Assembly (NCBI GenBank): GCA_963924555.1
Contig: OZ004585.1
Location: 2,927,488 to 2,991,487, forward strand
Direction of reading: 5' to 3'
Length of the DNA: 64,000 bases
Source of the DNA: Crambe crambe
Lineage: Eukaryota > Porifera > Demospongiae > Poecilosclerida > Crambeidae
Part shown: one piece after another, positions 15,587 through 25,633 of the stretch
How positions within the stretch are numbered: position 1 is the first letter of the stretch
How the letters are laid out: each line of letters starts with the position of its first letter
The notes under the pieces: model-generated
What the model was told of the DNA's origin: nothing
Seen by the model: only the letters and a program-made list of their open reading frames with translations
Databases searched by the model: none
Made by a program: the position numbers and the translations under genes

Positions 15587-16206
15587 TTATTTAACAATTT
15601 TATCAACACCATCTTTTTGATAAATAATGATATACTTCGGAATAATTGCATCAGGATTAGAAAGTACAATTTCTTCATAGTTCAGACTTCCTCCAGCAAC
15701 ACCATGTATAGAGTGGTAACCATCTGGTGGGCCATTCAGACTCTGGTCATTCTTTGCCAATTTGTATTTGTTCCCTGGACTTACATCACATAGCAGAAGT
15801 GCTCTATAGTTGTAGGCACCCTGAGTATAGTCGTGGCACTTGGAAGATTTTGGTGCTAGATAAAATCCAGGACCAAACCTTTGGAAACTCAGGATATTAT
15901 GACTTATTTTGTGCCTTTTGAACCCAGATTCTGATATGCCACAAATACCACAATCAGAGGAACAGCAAAGATCTTTAGTTACTGTGATATTGCATAAAAG
16001 TTTAGTTCCATGGTAGTGTTGTTCCGTTTCTCGGTAGAGCCTCGGCAAAGAATCATTATATACCCTCCATTTCATTTTTAAGAGATCATTTTCAATAATA
16101 AAAACAGCCTTCACATCTGGTAATGCTCCCTTTGCTTTGGCCCAATCATTTTTGAACTTAGTTGAAACTTGTGTATATTCCTGCCGTGTTGCCAGCCTGA
16201 TAATAT
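15587..16206 (-). CDS. Last exon: PARP catalytic domain
   Basis: It starts after acceptor TTGCAG with two bases completing a codon and ends at TAA 15587-15589. It encodes YHGTKLL, a Cys cluster CCSSDCGICGI that may bind metal, FGPGFYLAPKSSKCHDY, and YEEIVLSNPDA, where the second E aligns with the catalytic Glu of tankyrase and PARP1. This PARP subtype (HGT, Cys cluster, SSKCHDY) is common in fungi and sponges. H-Y-E is the signature of transferases able to make chains, although activity is inferred. The domain call alone is much firmer than the linkage to the upstream exons. Confidence 0.9.
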
Positions 16207-19200
16207 CTGCAAGTCAATGATGTTGGTCATGCCGTGACAGTGGTACAGTATAATAATAATAGTAATTGAATTTACCATCATCCTGGTTAGGAGAATAAAG
16301 AGAAAGAGAATGAATAGGTATCACTGGGTCATTGTTTGCTCCAACTATATTATAGAATAAAAATAAACATACCAAGCATATAATACAAGTGAGTTTGTCT
16401 AAAAAAAAAGTTGTTATTTTGACCAGAGCCTTATTTTTCAACCACCCAGCAAAATAAATAAGTGGGCTGGCTTGCAAAACTAATAGCATAAGCCTTTCCT
16501 GTATCCTGTGGGAAAGACGACAAAAAATCTGACATCTTCCTTCAATCTTGATAATCCAACTTCGCAGCAAACTAGTGTGCTCCATAGTGTCTCCAACTCT
16601 TTTGAGGATTGATAAGTACAAAAGATCGAATTTGGAGCGGTGGTTCGAGAGATATGGTTGTCTAGTGATAATAACAATAGTGAAAAAGAAGATAAAAATA
16701 TATAATATACTTGCTTGAAACGGTAAGCTGAAACTTGGTCTGCACATTGTAGTAGGCTCTAGTAGGCTGGATAATCATTTACAGTAGCTTTTGTTAGGTC
16801 TAAGTGGGGGAACTAGAATTTCACTTTTGTATTAGTCTATATGCGGCATGCCACGTCATCCCTACATAGAGAGCTCTCTCTGATACTATAGCTCATAGCT
16901 ATAGTACTAGCTATAGTTATAGCTAGTAGTATAGTGGCATGCATGTGGAATGTGTGCTATTGAAGTGTGCTATTTCAGTCTATGTGTGCAATTACAGATT
17001 AATAGTGTCGTACCTGGGTACAAGGCTGAGAAATAGCCATTTCCAGTCTCAGGGAAGAATTTTGAACTAGAAGTTAGTTTCTTGCTTCCTGCTTTGAAGT
17101 GCAAATTAAAGCCAAATGGTACCAGAGGTAGCATTAGTTTATCGAAACAAACCCTCGCGTTTCAGCCATGTAGCTAAAGCAGTGGATATAAATTGGTTTG
17201 ATATGAGGCCACACCAGCCCAGCTAGATTTTAGGGCCATCAGCATGGTCGAGTTATTCTGCACAGTCAGCAGTACTGGCTGGCCAGATCGTCATGCATGT
17301 AATGACATCATTATGAATAATAAAGCATGCAATGTTAATGAGAAGATAGAAGATCATGGCTTTGAAAAGGGTTATCTCTTGGAGAGTGCTGAGTTGTTGG
17401 GCTACAGCAGTAGAGGGTGGGGCAATTCTGTCATTTTTGTTTTTCTGACTAGGGCAACTGGATTTTTTTACAGTCCCACCCTTGTACAGTAATTGCCCCA
17501 CCTTACATTAGACTGCTTTTGTGGAGGGGATGATACTTTGTACCATTACCACAGAGCCACACCCCATTACAAGATATGATGTGTTACGTACATCCGTCCA
17601 GAAAAAATCTGGATACCCAGAACATGTGAGTTTGACCAGACTCTTATCTATGCTATTGGAGAACTATTCTTCTTTCATCTGTCCCTGTATGCATAGAAGA
17701 ATGAACTCTATACATAAGAGAGGGAAAAAAGAGGAAGGAACAAGTAAGGGGAAAACATTTCTGTGAAATGAAAATAATGTAGGGATGATTATTGCTCTAA
17801 AAAGTAAGGAAATAAGGGATGAAGGATGGGAATGGGATCAATCTTTGTTCTGCATATCCAGCCAACAATCCCTATACATAATTATACACACTATCATCTG
17901 AAGCTACCCGACATATGTGTAGGGATTGTTGTCTGGATATACAGAACAAAGATTGATCTCATTTCCATCCCCTTCATCCTTCATCCCTACCCTTGTTTCC
18001 TTACTTTTTTGAGCAATGATCATCCCTACACTTTTTTTCCATTTCACTGAAATATTTTTTTCCTTTACAACAACCAACTATAAGTACTAGCTTCAAAACC
18101 TACTAGCTAGCTATGTCATGGCCTTATTCCCCAGAAATAATCATCATTCTTTAAAGGGCTAAGTTTCCTAATTCCACTCTAGTTTATAATTCCACTCCTA
18201 CCTACTACACATGCACAGACTAACACTATTTCTGAAGATGATAGGCAAGCTCAATTGATTTCTATAGTATTTTCTCCAAGTAAATTGTCTAGCCTGTTTC
18301 TCATGCAATATACTCAAAAGCATTTACTTAATACTTATTGCACACTCCTCTGTGGAATATCATGATTGGTAAATGAAGCTCCCCCTCCCAATCATGCAAA
18401 ATAAGATTTAAGATTTAATGTACTTAGCAACTTACATTGATTTCTTTCTACAGCTTTTGAACAGCATTTTGGTCATAGAGGTGCTAAGCTTATCTAAGTG
18501 GATTGGGTTATCTAAGTGGATTGGCACTTGGCTTATCCATGTTAGTGCTTGTGGTAAATATATTACAGCAGACTGAGCTTCCTACATCATTATCTATTAT
18601 CTTGTAGTTTATGCTGCCTAAGGAGTTCGAAGCACAAATGAGTTGGTACTAAATAACTTTACTTGCTCTACAAGGATATAAAGAATCGTGCACTTCGAGA
18701 CCGGAGTATGTTGCTTTGTTTGCCAATTGAATATGTTACACAACATACCCTAGTGATAATTGGCAAGCGAGCGAGCCTCATGCAAAATGACATAAGTCAC
18801 ATTCAAAACAGGAATTCAATTCATGCGAACATGAGAAGCACTTTGATAATCCTAGCAGCCTACCAGGCCTACAGATAAGCTAATCCACTGCTATAGAATT
18901 CAGCCTATCATCTCAGTAAAACATTACTAGGCTAGGGCTAGGGCTAGGGCTAGGGCTAGACTGCACATGCGTAGACAAGGCATTGAATAATGCCATTGAA
19001 TATTCAACCGTTATTCAATGGTAACCAACCAATCAGATTGGAATCCATGTATATAATAATAATAATAATATACCTGCTTGGTTGCTAGTCCCTGGATGCC
19101 TTTTGGGACAGTTCACATCACGGCAGCTCTTGCCACTACTCCATGCTTCACATAGACTTGTGGAATAGAGGAGAGTTGATTGATGACGATATGGACACTG

Positions 19201-22200
19201 CAGTTGATGTGTTATGTAATGATAGCATATATGATGTTAATTGGCTACATCATAACTACATGTTGCTCATGCTCAACTAACTGTCCATGCAAGGCTTTAA
19301 GCAGGAGAAATAACAGTCTGGCTCAACTTGCCAAGATATTATAATGAAATACTTAAAGTCTGATTCATACATGAAGTCCTTTTGGCAAAATTAATATGAA
19401 TATCATCACTTTGGCTTCACCTAGTTACTGACCCATTCATGAACAGCATAAAGTTAAATTGGTGCCTATAATTATATCGGCCTTACACTAGATCCATTTG
19501 TGCACATCCTGTTAACATAATGAATGCAATCAGTATAGGGCCTCAGATCATCATTAGTGGTCGGAACGTAACCAATCTTTCCATCATATTTCCCAGAGTG
19601 TCCCCTTCTTCGTTGTTCAGCTGGTCCCCTGGCCATTATTCTTTGACCATAAATCAAACTTCCATGCCTCATTCTAGCAGCATGCTCTGCAGTCCTTTCA
19701 TCTCCAAAGATAACAAATCCACAGTGCCTATACAATAATAATATAATAGTAAAATAATAATAATAATATCCTAAAGTCTATTAAACTCACTTTGACTTCT
19801 TAGTTTCTTTATCACGAAATATCATAACATGTAAGATTTTTCCGAACTGCGAAAAATTTTCAGTAAGATCCTTTTCTCGCACTATTCCTTTCAGACCTCC
19901 CACCCACACAGTGGGGTAACCCATTGCAGTCGGTACATTAACTGGGTCCTACAGTACATAAAATAATAGTAACTCACTTGACTCTAGGTTTCTTCATCAT
20001 GAATAGCTAATTATAACCTGTACGATCTTTCGGCCATACTGTGAGCATTGAATTAAGTCATCCACACCTTTAATCTGAATTATACTTTCAATAAAATCAT
20101 TCACATTGATGATGATCATTGAAAAATTTGTATAAAAAAAGAATATTGACTAGTGGAATGTTATACAATTCTTATCATGGTGCTGAATTAAGTCAGCCTT
20201 TGTTCTAATTTATCAGGTGACTTTAAAATGCTGCATCACTTGTGGTATTTAGGTCTAACTTTTGTTGTGGAAGCTAAAACAGGAGTGTCAGCTTACCACC
20301 CTGTTGAATTCTACAGAGGAAACAGGATTTTAAAAGATTATGATTGCAATGTCTGCACTAGGTTTTTTTGAGTAAAACATCTTTCATAGCAAATAAAGGA
20401 CCCACTAAACTGCTGAACTAAATACCTGCAGATATAAAGTGTAACTGCACAATGAAATGTAGTGACCACTTGAATGTATTTTAACTTGCGTATGTACATG
20501 CAATACAGGTGATGAATGGTAAGGGGTGCATATTGGATGATAAGGAGTGTAAGGTTGTAGTACTATTGATATACGAATCCACTTCAGTCCACAAAATATT
20601 CAACTAATTGCTGTTCAGAGTGTGTTAGAACATTGAAGATTCTTCGGAACTGTAAATGGATTTACACTGTTATTTGCTCCTTACCTTGGACTTGTCGGAG
20701 ATGTCAGTCCCATGTCCTAAAGTCATGCTTCCACCGTACCTTGAATAAGTGGCCACACTTGCTTCAGTCACATCACTGAATGCTGAGTCATCATCATTAT
20801 CACCACCCTTCACTTGAAGGGCAGCCATTGGTTCCTCCAGAGAGAGGGTAGGGGAGGGAGGATCTGGGCAGGGAGAGAGAAATTATTTCCTGGACTGTCA
20901 TTGTTCATACATACTTGTGTCTGAACTGTCACTGTTTTCACCTTTTTCAGTAATTTCAACAATAAGATCTGCAGCATCAAATTAATAAATACTTTATTAT
21001 TAGCTAAATGCATGCACTTAGTGTACAAATAGTTTTGCAATGGTATTTAAATGTTCTAAAAATCACAGGCACATAACATTACTGATCATGATTCCTATAG
21101 CATACCTGATTCACTGTTCTTTGCTGCCTCTTCAGCTATTTTTTCCGATAGAGATACAAGATTCAATGTTTGTTCTCCATAGATGATGCTGAGGACTCCC
21201 ATGTTTCTCAGAGCTTGCTGCTCTTCCTTGGTTAGCTTCTGGATCATCTCATCTGCATTGGGCAAGGCTCTGAAGGTCAGTTGGATACAGCCAGGATCTG
21301 TTTTCAGCAATCTCAAGTGATAGGAACCTATTGCTGAGTTGAGATTGAAGCAAAGCTCTTCCAATTCTTTCAATGTCATTGTTTCAAAGTTGCACTCCTC
21401 TATTTTGAACACAAGGGTCTTCCCGTTTTCCTCCTTATCACCAAACACATTGCTAGGACACTCACAGACTCTGCGTCTTGCATATTTTTGGAAATCAGTT
21501 ATATAAGCTTTCAATCGCAAATTGATGTCATGTTTTTCTCCAAAGAGGCAACCAATGAGTAACTCAATCAAAGCATAGTCAAAGAATGACCAATATTTCC
21601 TTCCTTCATTGAAAACTTTATCAATCGAATCACATTCCTTGAATACTTCATGGAATCTAGGATCTTCTCGGGAAAAAATTTGAATTACTTTTTCTGCAGT
21701 AATTCCCAACTCTTTTAATGCCTCTTGTAGACGAAACTCAAGAGTTATAAACCCATGCTTGATTTTGGTGGTATCTTTCATCAAATAATGAATGAGGTTT
21801 GTTCGCACGTGTTTGGCCATGTCCTTAGAGAGAAATGGAAAGAGAGCCTCAACACCTGCAGAAAGATGATTTCATTTCTTATAGACACTTTAGCTATAAA
21901 TGCTATCAAACATTCTTTGCTTCACATTTTCGGTTCCATAGTAATGATGTTATGTATCTACATGTAGTTATTGATTCCTATCTCAACCTAAGACAAAATT
22001 CACATGTATATCAGTGGCATAGGAACCATGGGGGCTCTGGGCCTGTTGCATATAACCCACCATGCCCTGATATGCAACAGGATGGCCTGTTGCATAACCA
22101 GACTATGCCTACTTGCCCTGTACATTGTAAAGAGGATGCCAGTGAATCATTTGAGAGGTGATATTGATGGTTAGGGTGAATGGCAGAAATTGAATGGCAA

Positions 22201-23143
22201 TTAATCTGTAGGAAAAATTTAAACATCATAAGCTACCTTGTGTGAGATTAGTTAAATATTTTCACCATTTTAGCATTTTAATATTTTAACATTTAACATT
22301 TAAATCCTGTTATCCAGCACTGCAGGATAGCTGACTGGTTACAGTTACCATAAGCATAGCAAATAACAGGACAGCTGACCTGGGTAGTAGCTAGCTAGCT
22401 CTCATGGCTATAGTTGAAAACAAGACATCCAGTTACACAACAGACAAATTCAGCATCAGGGTGGGAACATATTCAATAGTCATGAAGATTATCACATAAA
22501 ACACATTCGTAATTGAACATGGCTCTATAATGCTGTAGCTAATACAAATAATGTAGGTCTACACTATTAAACTAGCTAACATTAGTCAGCCACAATGATC
22601 GATCATTACCTGATTGTTGAGAAGCCTGAATATATTTTGCTTCAACAGCCTTTGCAAGAGCAGGGAGGTGTACTGGAGGTGCATTTAGTGCAGAGAAAAT
22701 ATTCTTCCATGTTGGTTCTGAACCTTGACCTGCCAGCCAATCCATCAGCATCTGACTGAAGCACTCTGCTGGATCGTCCCTGAACTTTGTTCTTATTGCT
22801 TCAAGAGAGGAAGGACGCAGTCCCAACTCCACCCCCAAATGGAACCATTTTACTTGAGCATCCCAAATACAACTCCTCACTTCTTTCAGGTCATCTGTCA
22901 CCAACACAGCTAAATGACATGATACAATGATTCTGGCTAGCTGAATTCACAAGGTGACTAAACCTGTTCTGCTAACTGGGCATCAAGAGCCAATTTCCAG
23001 CAGTAGCTACCTATAATTATATGCTGAGTACATTAACTCCTACATATTTATTTATTTATTGTCATTATCAATTTTTAATATAAAGAGCTACTATGAGTGG
23101 GATATGAGTAATGGCAAAACTTACTCTCTGGGCCAGGATCCAT
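15587..23143 (-). CDS. Death-RRM-CCCH(x2)-PARP fusion protein, nine exons
   Basis: Exons: 23125-23143, 22610-22909, 21106-21855, 20915-20968, 20685-20863, 19791-19948, 19487-19727, 19074-19197 and 15587-16206. All junctions are GT/AG and all phases agree; the total is 2445 bases, 814 residues plus TAA. Domains: Death (~14-98, core WFHLGVELGL); middle region (~107-356) resembling one found in sponge Death proteins; acidic linker; RRM (~446-525, RNP2 VWVGGL, RNP1 KHCGFVIF); CCCH fingers C554-x7-C-x5-C-x3-H and C583-x8-C-x4-C-x3-H601; PARP catalytic domain with HGT (H674), GFY (Y724) and E787, the H-Y-E triad. The first finger is split by an intron and is restored exactly by splicing. Predicted role: RNA-guided ADP-ribosylation tied to death-fold signalling. 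Least certain are the 2.9-kb last intron and the assumption of one transcript. Confidence 0.75.
16480..16560 (-). pseudogene. RecQ-like helicase fragment (motif I region)
   Basis: The minus strand reads GLSRLKED, then FFVVFPTGYRKGLCY and a stop. This matches the Q-motif to Walker A stretch of sponge RecQ-like helicases (usual PTGYGKSLCY), with the lysine motif altered and an internal deletion. It lies inside the last intron of the PARP gene, presumably inserted with a mobile element. Confidence 0.5.
17759..18054. mobile_element. Foldback MITE
   Basis: Two long inverted arms (about 115 bases each) flank a short centre. Each contains GTAGGGATGAT, ATTGCTC, AAAGTAAGGAAA and ATCAATCTTTGTTCTG. It lies in the last PARP intron. 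The GTAGGGAT motif near the ends is shared with the foldbacks at 26279, 27586 and 30866. Confidence 0.7.
18928..18959. repeat. (GGGCTA)n short tandem repeat
   Basis: Four to five units of CTAGGG. It is close to, but not, the animal telomere repeat TTAGGG. Confidence 0.85.
19074..19948 (-). CDS. Exons 6-8: RRM and two CCCH zinc fingers
   Basis: Exon 6 (19791-19948) and exon 7 (19487-19727) make one complete RRM across an intron inside the RNP1 lysine codon. Exon 7 could read on to TAA at 19472. However, a strong donor AGT|GTAAGG at 19487 joins it to 19197, where the first codons are CPYRH. This completes CIHYVNRMC-x5-C-x3-H. A second finger CEAWSSGKSCRDVNCPKRH follows. The intron retention form would give a protein ending after half a finger. 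Confidence 0.8.
19978..20095 (-). pseudogene. Decayed duplicate of the RRM exon
   Basis: It lies in the intron between exons 5 and 6 of the PARP gene. The minus strand reads IIQIKGVDDLIQCSQYGRK then IVQVII, parallel to exon 6 (VWVGGL...FSQFGKILHVMIF), and ends at a matching donor AA|GTGAGT. A GCTA insertion at 20004-20008 breaks the frame; without it the frame runs on into IHDEET, followed by an in-frame TAG. The gene thus once had, or tried, a second RRM half. Confidence 0.55.
20685..23143 (-). CDS. Exons 1-5: Death domain, sponge middle region, linker
   Basis: Exon 1 encodes only MDPGPE plus one base. Exon 2 carries the Death domain (tryptophans in WFHLG, DWLAG and PTWKN). Exon 3, 750 bases, encodes a conserved sponge-type region containing FFDYALIELLI and LNSAIGSYHLRLLK. 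Exon 4 (54 bases) and exon 5 encode a Ser/Asp-rich linker. Without exons 6-9 this would look like an ordinary sponge Death-domain protein, so an automatic predictor might stop here. Confidence 0.82.
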
Positions 23144-23552
23144 CTTGAATTCTTGATGTTACCACAGAGTTTCTGGAGGGAGAGGAGAACTATGTACAGC
23201 TATCTGTGCAAAGGATAGGTTGACCAGATGAGCTTGAGAGTGGAAGGTGTTTGGAGTGGGGTAAGAAAGACCACTGATCAAGTGTCTGGGTGGGGCTCTT
23301 ATTAATCACACTCTACGTATTTAATATACCTGTCAGCTTGACTTATTAATGATAGGTGGTACGAGCCCCGCCCCTAAACGGATTCGGGAGCTTAGGTAGT
23401 AGTGTACGTACACGGTAGACAGTACACCTCAAAGAATGATAGCTATGGACCTTATCTAAAATTTTGGGTGTGGCTGGCCGGCTGGCCGGGTAAACAATCT
23501 CATGCGCATGCGCAGTTAATAGCAAAGATTGTCAAAGCATAGATTGTATAGA
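23144..23552. promoter_or_regulatory. Presumed promoter region of the PARP fusion gene
   Basis: Just upstream of exon 1. It holds GC-richer patches such as GAGCCCCGCCCC (23357-23368), a GGCTGGCCGG repeat and TGCGCATGCGCA, an NRF1-like palindrome near 23503-23514. Motif reading only; no TATA box is evident. Confidence 0.3.
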
Positions 23553-23806: not shown

Positions 23807-24638
23807 GTAACCGGATTGGAAACGCAATATAAACTGCCCGGCCACTCCTTATTGCGCATGCCCGCATTAATTAATACAACATGAAAAAGATCAAATTTGG
23901 GTATTAAGTGTGCAGCCATTGATCCTGGTGATTTCTTTCAGGTTCTTCTTCACCTCTGCACCTTCTTGTTCTCTGCCCGAACTATGAGTGAAGATTTTGA
24001 AGCCTCCCTATCTGTTGATCATCCCTGAGGACTATAATATTAAAAATTAATGTACTCTAATCATTGAGCTTTTTCTCGGCAAGGGAATGCACACAATTGG
24101 AAAGCATAGGTGGAGGGCATGAAGGAATAACTACTTGTTATGAATATAAATTGGGGTCACTAGAAACAACTTCACTTTTTCAAAAAAAGGTACGCAAAGA
24201 CACACCCACCAAATGTGAACTATTGGCTGAAACTCTTGAATACATGTAAAGTTCACTACAATTTAGGTATGAGGGCATGAAGTAGAGTGTATACTAAACT
24301 CTGAAACTGTAAGCTGCAAATTTATCCTTTCATGTAAGGAGATACAGGTACACAAAGCCAAAACAGGATAAAACAGACTGGTATGGGTGTCCTAGCAGCC
24401 AAAAATTCGCTTTTTTCACGAGTAAGGTGGTGAAGTTACTAGCTATACTATGGACTTACTTCTGAACTTCGAGAGGTCGATTCCTCATGTTAGGCCACGT
24501 TAGGCTTTTTCAGCTCTTCCACGCACCGCAACACGGATTGTACCACGCATGTTGTATTGTTGCTATGGGGCGTTTCCAATCCCGGTTACGTAGTCTATAC
24601 AACATAACATGGTCAAAGCATAGATTACGTAGTCTATC
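23807..24638. other. Intergenic, nothing firm
   Basis: It contains GGATTGGAAACGC at 23814 and its inverse at 24569, a motif also found in the element at 61671-62765. No exon is supported. Confidence 0.35.
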
Positions 24639-25633
24639 AGAGAGTGCGGTAGCACTCTCTAAGTAGGGATGGCAGGTCAAAGTCCATAGGACAGTATAAA
24701 CTAAAAACTCTTCTTTCTCTTCTACCCTTACTCTACAGGTTCTCAGAAGGCTACAGTGAATTATTATATCTACAAAGAAGAGAGGAGAATGTTCAAAAGC
24801 CAAAAATTCATTCGCCAACATAAGAAAAAAACGAGTTCTAAAATTGACTTTTCGTTCTTTTTCTTTATCAGAGAGTGCGGTAGCACTCTCTAAGTAGGGA
24901 AGAGTGCGGTAGCACTCTCTAAGTAGGGATGGCAGGTCAAAGTCCATAGGACAGTATAAACTAAAAACTCTTCTTTCTCTTCTACCCTTACTCTACAGGT
25001 TCTCAGAAGGCTACAGTGAATTATTATATCTACAAAGAAGAGAGGAGAATGTTCAAAAGCCAAAAATTCATTCGCCAACATAAGAAAAAAACGAGTTCTA
25101 AAATTGACTTTTCGTTCTTTTTCTTTATAATAATCAGAGAGTGCGGTAGCACTCTCTAAGTAGGGATGGCAGGTCAAAGTCCATAGGACAGTATAAACTA
25201 AAAACTCTTCTTTCTCTTCTACCCTTACTCTACAGGTTCTCAGAAGGCTACAGTGAATTATTATATCTACAAAGAAGAGAGGAGAATGTTCAAAAGCCAA
25301 AAATTCATTCGCCAACATAAGAAAAAAACGAGTTCTAAAATTGACTTTTCGTTCTTTTTCTTTATAATAATAATCAGAGAGTGCGTTAGCACTCTCTAAG
25401 TAGGGATGGCGGGTCAAAGGTCATAAGACAGTATAAACTAAAAACTCTTCTTTCTCTTCTACCCTTGCTCTACAGGTTCTCAGAAGTCTAGAGTGAATTA
25501 TTACATCTACAAAGAAGAGAGGAGAATATTCCAAAATCAAAAATTCATTCGCTAACATAAGAAAAAAACGATGTCTAAAATTGACTTTTGTTCTTTTTCT
25601 TTATAATAATAATAATAATAATAATAATAATCA
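24639..25633. repeat. Four-copy tandem repeat, ~231-240-base units
   Basis: Units begin at 24639, 24870 (a broken start, repeated at 24901), 25136 and 25376. Each starts with the hairpin AGAGAGTGCGGTAGCACTCTCT-like block and ends in a TAA-repeat tail that grows to about ten TAA units before 25633. Identity between the first three is near perfect; the last is diverged. Spacing differs by multiples of three because of the TAA tail, so a minus-strand frame stays open through the array. I regard it as non-coding. Confidence 0.85.

Follow-up and report, generated by a model that had tools for sequence, protein, structure and literature searches.

On balance, we favor the reading that a minus-strand locus in a 64,000-nucleotide stretch of the genome of the sponge Crambe crambe (the window; contig C8, positions 2927488-2991487, in a 143-Mb genome) encodes one chimeric protein, in which a Death domain, a DED-like domain, a TRADD-N-like domain and an acidic linker are followed by an RRM, two CCCH zinc fingers and a PARP catalytic domain. 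The locus consists of a head (exons 1-5) that belongs to a large family with varied downstream domains, and an RRM-CCCH-PARP half (exons 6-9) that recurs as a complete gene on another contig, C5. An earlier note, made from the letters of the window alone, had described a Death-RRM-CCCH-PARP chain. This chain stands as the best reading of the locus, with exons 6-9 backed by the C5 copy; the junction between exons 5 and 6 is the one left unproven, and the head holds more domains than had been noted.

Exon model and domain content

Nine minus-strand exons with GT/AG ends can be joined without an internal stop into 814 codons, with exon 2 starting at 22909, which reproduces the model of the earlier note. 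The features of the gene are as follows:

23125-23143, minus strand: exon 1, encoding MDPGPE (splice model; homology to head copy L044 over 23103-23170)
22610-22909, minus strand: exon 2, Death domain (acceptor in all 6 matched copies; Pfam Death score below cut-off)
21106-21855, minus strand: exon 3, DED-like helical and TRADD-N-like domains (AlphaFold2 predicted local distance difference test score, pLDDT, 88.4; genomic paralogs; protein P0001)
21467-21769, minus strand: DED-like helical part, exon-3 residues 29-129
21170-21424, minus strand: exon-3 residues 144-228, an alpha+beta domain of TRADD-N-like type (with Gly-Cys, 21292-21287, at its beta2-beta3 turn)
20915-20968, minus strand: exon 4, acidic linker (splice model; ENSDSSD motif shared with copies read on C10 and C12)
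20685-20863, minus strand: exon 5, linker, donor end AAG/GTAAGG (GTAAG in 37 of 38 genomic copies)
19949-20684, minus strand: intron 5, the zone joining the two units (head-like intron sequence, then a decayed duplicate of exon 6 together with intron 6)
19791-19948, minus strand: exon 6, first half of the RRM, holding the ATG at 19924 that starts the C5 gene (splice model; C5 copy)
19487-19727, minus strand: exon 7, second half of the RRM and start of CCCH finger 1 (RRM_1 match; C5 copy)
19074-19197, minus strand: exon 8, rest of CCCH finger 1 and CCCH motif 2 (zf-CCCH_3; identical borders in C5; similar exon on C17)
16276-16344, minus strand: candidate 69-nucleotide in-frame exon between the CCCH and PARP regions (C5 counterpart with AG/GT flanks)
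15587-16206, minus strand: exon 9, PARP catalytic domain (His 16012-16010, Tyr 15862-15860, Glu 15673-15671)

The acceptor AG of exon 2 at 22909 was kept in 6 of 6 matched copies, the window included (seven were tried; L053 was unmatched). An alternative acceptor 15 nucleotides downstream, giving 809 codons, was rejected, as it is not present in L046 and L051. Exon 1 has a similar counterpart, starting MNPxP, in three other head copies (L044, L052 and L053). In two of these, L052 (1-200) and L053 (6653-6856), exon 1 encodes ETRDIKMNPGPK, which resembles a 2A translational recoding motif; the window carries the altered form FKMDPGPE.

In Pfam searches of the translation, RRM_1 (53.7 bits, residues 443-512), PARP (PF00644, 45.1 bits) and zf-CCCH_3 (32.5 bits against a cut-off of 31, residues 547-598) all scored above their Pfam cut-offs, whereas Death (PF00531) stayed below, with 18.0 bits for the whole protein and 20.0 bits for the N-terminal piece against a cut-off of 22.6. 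The same Death profile was above cut-off in four of five paralogous Death exons. A second CCCH motif, read by eye in exon 8, lies within the zf-CCCH_3 match. This motif, the DED-like and TRADD-N-like domains of exon 3 and the candidate 69-nucleotide exon had all been overlooked in the earlier inventory.

Exon 3 of the window scored 16.0 bits with TRADD-N (PF13820), below the curated cut-off of 22.5, which is a convention and not a defining trait in PMC8195603. Among 27 exon-3 family members, PF13820 was matched at E<=0.1 in three (best E 0.0037) and TRADD-like_N (PF20694) in two (best E 2.4e-5). Because these scores are weak, the domain is named TRADD-N-like. Its four-stranded, RRM-like alpha+beta fold is present, and Gly188-Cys189, situated between strands 179-186 and 190-197, is at least 90% conserved in the 27 sequences. 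These two residues correspond to the trait that PMC8195603, in its passages on this domain, places at the beta2-beta3 turn: a small residue and Ser, sometimes Cys. Searched against the PDB as a profile, the exon-3 family brought up 8 sequences, all at E 0.24 or worse, and Foldseek searches with two predicted models returned no match at E<=0.001.

The unfused copy of exons 6-9

Contig C5 carries a second copy of exons 6-9, identical in order, strand and exon borders, which encodes a complete 372-residue protein. Synonymous divergence (dS) between the copies is 0.105, and the ratio of nonsynonymous to synonymous divergence (dN/dS) is 0.33 (Fisher p 1e-4), a pairwise value that says nothing of constraint on the window copy alone. 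Exons 6-9, encoding the RRM, two CCCH fingers and the PARP domain, are very likely one gene. In both copies an in-frame stop lies three codons upstream of the PARP exon, and the C5 copy of this exon has no Met in its translation; the PARP exon therefore needs the exons upstream of it, and the idea that it is a stand-alone gene was rejected. The earlier note had doubted the exon 8-exon 9 junction. Since the C5 copy shares these borders and the PARP exon depends on upstream exons, that doubt can largely be set aside, and the junction is well supported.

The stretch 16344-16276 may be a further exon, which would bring the protein to 837 codons. It is identical to C5 at 66 of 69 positions, and all three changes are synonymous if it is read in frame; the intron beside it is as alike between the two copies (60 of 61 aligned positions), so that the putative exon is conserved no better than its flank. 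On C5, a cluster of PARP-exon genes surrounds the unfused RRM-CCCH-PARP copy (3763000-3801000); one further PARP frame stops some 95 bases short of the ATG of that copy, on its upstream side.

The dispersed head and its junction with exon 6

Exons 1-5 are a separate module, made up of Death, DED-like and TRADD-N-like domains and a linker, that is present in dozens of genomic copies. Exon 3 had at least 150 matches in its own genome; this and other paralog counts are of exon matches, not genes, and are lower bounds. Compared with six paralogs, exon 3 gave dN/dS values of 0.24-0.55. Protein searches recovered a single related head, that of the NACHT-LRR protein P0001 (48% identity to exon 3 over 246 residues), where the related domain precedes NACHT-LRR.

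The constant head is repeated in the genome with differing C-terminal domains. In the copies read on C10 and C12, an ankyrin exon with a phase-0 acceptor comes after the linker, and phase 0 is also the phase of exon 6 in the window. In a copy on C13 (L053 3714-5582), one uninterrupted frame of 623 amino acids spans the TRADD-N exon and continues into a GTPase-like domain (MMR_HSR1, 22.5 bits against a cut-off of 21.9; AIG1 below cut-off), so heads of this kind can become joined to other domains. On C6, sacsin (SACS, 74.2 bits) lies downstream of the head on the same strand. A gene downstream of the head on C9, again on the same strand, is presumably M1-aminopeptidase-like, judging from its motifs (first-exon Pfam score 16.4 bits, below cut-off). 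No Pfam family was found in three frames downstream of the head at L045. Splicing from head to partner is presumed everywhere except in C13 and P0001. In two C9 copies (L046 7145-7564 and L054 4267-4686), the linker frame continues past the donor into the apparent start of the M1 aminopeptidase, and the ATG of the aminopeptidase-like gene lies 9 bases into the presumed intron.

What puts the exon 5-exon 6 join in doubt is the full-length C5 copy, which lacks the Death part. Splicing there is nevertheless likely, judging from the signals and homologies at the junction. The linker end with its donor was found in 38 genomic copies, the window included, and GTAAG was intact in 37 of them; the search pattern itself contained the donor and allowed up to three mismatches, so strongly altered donors would escape it. 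The third donor base, at a codon position that would be free to change if the sequence were translated, varied in none of the 38. Together with the phase-0 acceptors of the ankyrin copies and the C13 fusion, these donors argue for a head that is spliced onward. No match to the region upstream of the ATG in C5, containing TATAAATA, was seen in the window, as 203 of 300 shuffles scored equally well. In the 9.9 kb downstream of the gene, no Pfam domain was found at E<=0.001 in three minus-strand frames, and thus nothing there looked like a competing partner of known type. The dN/dS values below 1 in both halves and the precedent of oyster proteins described below also favor a fusion.

The two units meet within intron 5. 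Homology of the window to head copies extends through exon 5 into this intron, the first part of which resembles the intron of ankyrin-type copies (the number of 200 shuffles that scored as high was 0 for L019, 2 for L052 and 25 for L051). Homology to C5 starts at 19930 by BLAST, and a gapped alignment extends it to approximately the exon-6 acceptor. Adjoining exon 6, at 20090-19949, the sequence of exon 6 and intron 6 occurs once more in decayed form, with an alignment score of 63 that was reached by 0 of 500 shuffles (maximum 48).

Several observations weigh against a single chimeric protein. The two halves are joined by a splice alone, for which an in-frame TAG supplies, with its AG, the sole in-phase acceptor. 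If exon 5 is left unspliced, a stop follows four codons past its end, and 8 of 12 copies read have a stop at this codon position (TAA in the window; TGA in six C10 copies from one array and in C12), so that the head could simply end there. The start ATG of the C5 gene survives in exon 6 of the window at 19924. The intron-5 region has been rearranged, as indicated by the decayed RRM exon within it, and none of 122 retrieved proteins aligned to both the RRM-CCCH part and the PARP part, although many of these look like single-exon frames. The sub-threshold Death and TRADD-N scores, and the silence of the pairwise dN/dS on the window copy, count on the same side.

The main alternative is two same-strand neighbors, a Death-DED-TRADD-N gene ending just past exon 5 or in intron 5 and an RRM-CCCH-PARP gene starting at the ATG at 19924, and we regard this as a serious alternative that deserves appreciable, if minor, weight. 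The stop shared by 8 of 12 copies favors it. The C5 copy is complete and a search of the genome with exon 3 found no head match adjoining it; its ATG is conserved, with TATAAATA upstream of it in C5; and each half has relatives of its own, the change from one set to the other falling in intron 5. Against it, the C5 upstream region was not found in the window, and GTAAG is intact in nearly every copy of the donor. The stop is itself missing from 4 of the 12 copies (C6 twice, C9 twice), and six of the eight that share it come from the one C10 array. It is unlikely that the fused gene is a recent accident, little expressed or in decay, whose fused state serves no selected function, a possibility that overlaps the other readings: the decayed RRM exon in intron 5, the low dS to C5 and the many near-identical genomic copies of the head would fit it, but all exons are free of frameshifts and stops, and dN/dS is below 1 in both halves.

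Beyond the gene on its upstream side, three minus-strand frames over 9.9 kb contained no Pfam family, and a tandem repeat with units of about 240 bases was seen by eye at 24634-25500.

Catalytic domain, origin of the parts and known systems

The H-Y-E triad reported in the earlier note is intact. In an alignment of 35 sequences, H65 and Y115 were invariant and E178 was at least 90% conserved, and the Tyr and Glu line up with tankyrase in printed alignments. None of the 13 PARP differences between the window and C5 falls at a listed invariant or near-invariant column. The PARP exon had 12 matches in its own genome, itself included, and PARP-domain matches numbered 42 in all. Relatives of the PARP part among named proteins include those of Ephydatia, Geodia and Amphimedon, and those of the exon in other sponges have other N-termini, including SH3-SH2 and cysteine-rich ones. 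Four cysteines just past the catalytic His (C71, C80, C85 and C88) were invariant in 35 of 35 PARP-family sequences, which suggests a family-specific zinc site.

The RRM and CCCH exons match a gene on C17 (E 6.1e-6 and 2.5e-4) that contains NYN and RRM_MARF1 domains (Pfam). This MARF1-like gene shares with the window an RRM followed by two CCCH motifs, apparently broken at the same two places as exons 6-8, but continues with NYN and RRM_MARF1 where the window gene has PARP. The earlier note had named ZC3HAV1, PARP12 and TIPARP as known CCCH-PARPs; that the window protein is a true member of this family with an acquired Death domain is very improbable and was rejected, for although its CCCH fingers adjoin the PARP domain, WWE was not found at E<=1, the RRM-CCCH exons resemble the MARF1-like gene, and the PARP profile favors tankyrase (best E 9.9e-14) and PARP4 (4e-13) over PARP12 (1.9e-8) and ZC3HAV1 (2.9e-8).

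Both the C5 copy and those head copies that were read retain their introns, suggesting that the copying took place at the DNA level. The gene was probably assembled in three steps, all at that level. MARF1-like RRM-CCCH exons would first have been joined to a PARP exon; the resulting gene would then have been copied, probably from C5 to C8, where the copy would have come to sit behind a Death-TRADD-N head through an intronic breakpoint. For TRADD-N fusions, retroposition from the DEDD2 clade has been proposed as at least part of the origin (PMC8195603, section 11).

How the chimeric protein would work can be outlined from its domains. The RRM and CCCH fingers might bind RNA, which would serve as the trigger, and so gather several chains; homotypic contacts between Death and DED-like domains would next drive assembly and draw in partners, with the TRADD-N-like domain acting as a switch between head and tail, and the PARP domain would pass ADP-ribose to bound or recruited targets. 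We advance only tentatively the further proposal that this is a working, recently born, RNA-triggered death-fold ADP-ribosyltransferase, and that heads gain whole intron-containing genes through intronic breakpoints and not only by retroposition.

For TRADD-N proteins, retroposition has been offered as a partial answer to how invertebrate immune proteins acquire their output domains. The main value of the locus is that the steps of assembly are still visible. One genome holds the head family, a source-type RRM-CCCH gene, a PARP exon family, an unfused copy and a fused copy; relatives of each part remain separate elsewhere in the genome, and candidate source genes are still present. As the introns survive and the join is confined to a single 736-nucleotide intron, a DNA-level route becomes directly testable. 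If the fusion is real, sponges would follow oysters as the second example of an RNA-binding PARP carrying a death-fold head, which would hint that ADP-ribosylation near RNA is a favored output of such heads.

Among known systems, PARP7, PARP12, PARP13 and PARP10/PARP14 share with the window gene an RNA-binding domain ahead of PARP. In PARP7/12/13, the order given in the relevant part of PMC4245714 is CCCH-WWE-PARP, with WWE between CCCH and PARP. The window protein differs from these and from PARP10/14 in having no WWE, macro or UIM domain among the 14 Pfam families listed for it; its RRM and CCCH domains come from another source, and its PARP domain is nearer by profile to tankyrase and PARP4 than to the CCCH-PARPs.

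The closest likeness is to the Death/DED-TRADD-N class. As described in the parts of Kaur et al. 2021 (PMC8195603) that treat it, most architectures consist of one or more death-fold heads, TRADD-N and a variable C-terminus, and the sponge Amphimedon has 357 NCOA6-clade TRADD-N proteins. The Amphimedon C-termini listed in section 10 are ankyrin, SH3-LRR, kinase, MATH, SH2, PDZ, caspase, PNPase and HD. The window gene shares the death-fold and TRADD-N head, and ankyrin, one of the commonest partners, is also that of the C10 and C12 copies; RRM-CCCH-PARP, in contrast, is not in that section's list. The same section describes about 10 Crassostrea virginica DED-TRADD-N proteins with KH, RRM, macro and PARP domains (PARP14-like). 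These share with the window gene a death-fold/TRADD-N head, RNA-binding domains and a terminal PARP, but have macro and KH, whereas the window gene has two CCCH motifs and no macro and belongs to another phylum. Among open-licence PubMed Central texts, we found no paper that combines PARP, RRM, CCCH and TRADD-N, though such a combination may be printed elsewhere. The novelty claimed in the earlier note is overstated, because the head belongs to a published class with variable C-termini and the oyster PARP fusions have been described. The window gene thus combines its domains in a new way inside a class already described, and is not a new kind of protein.

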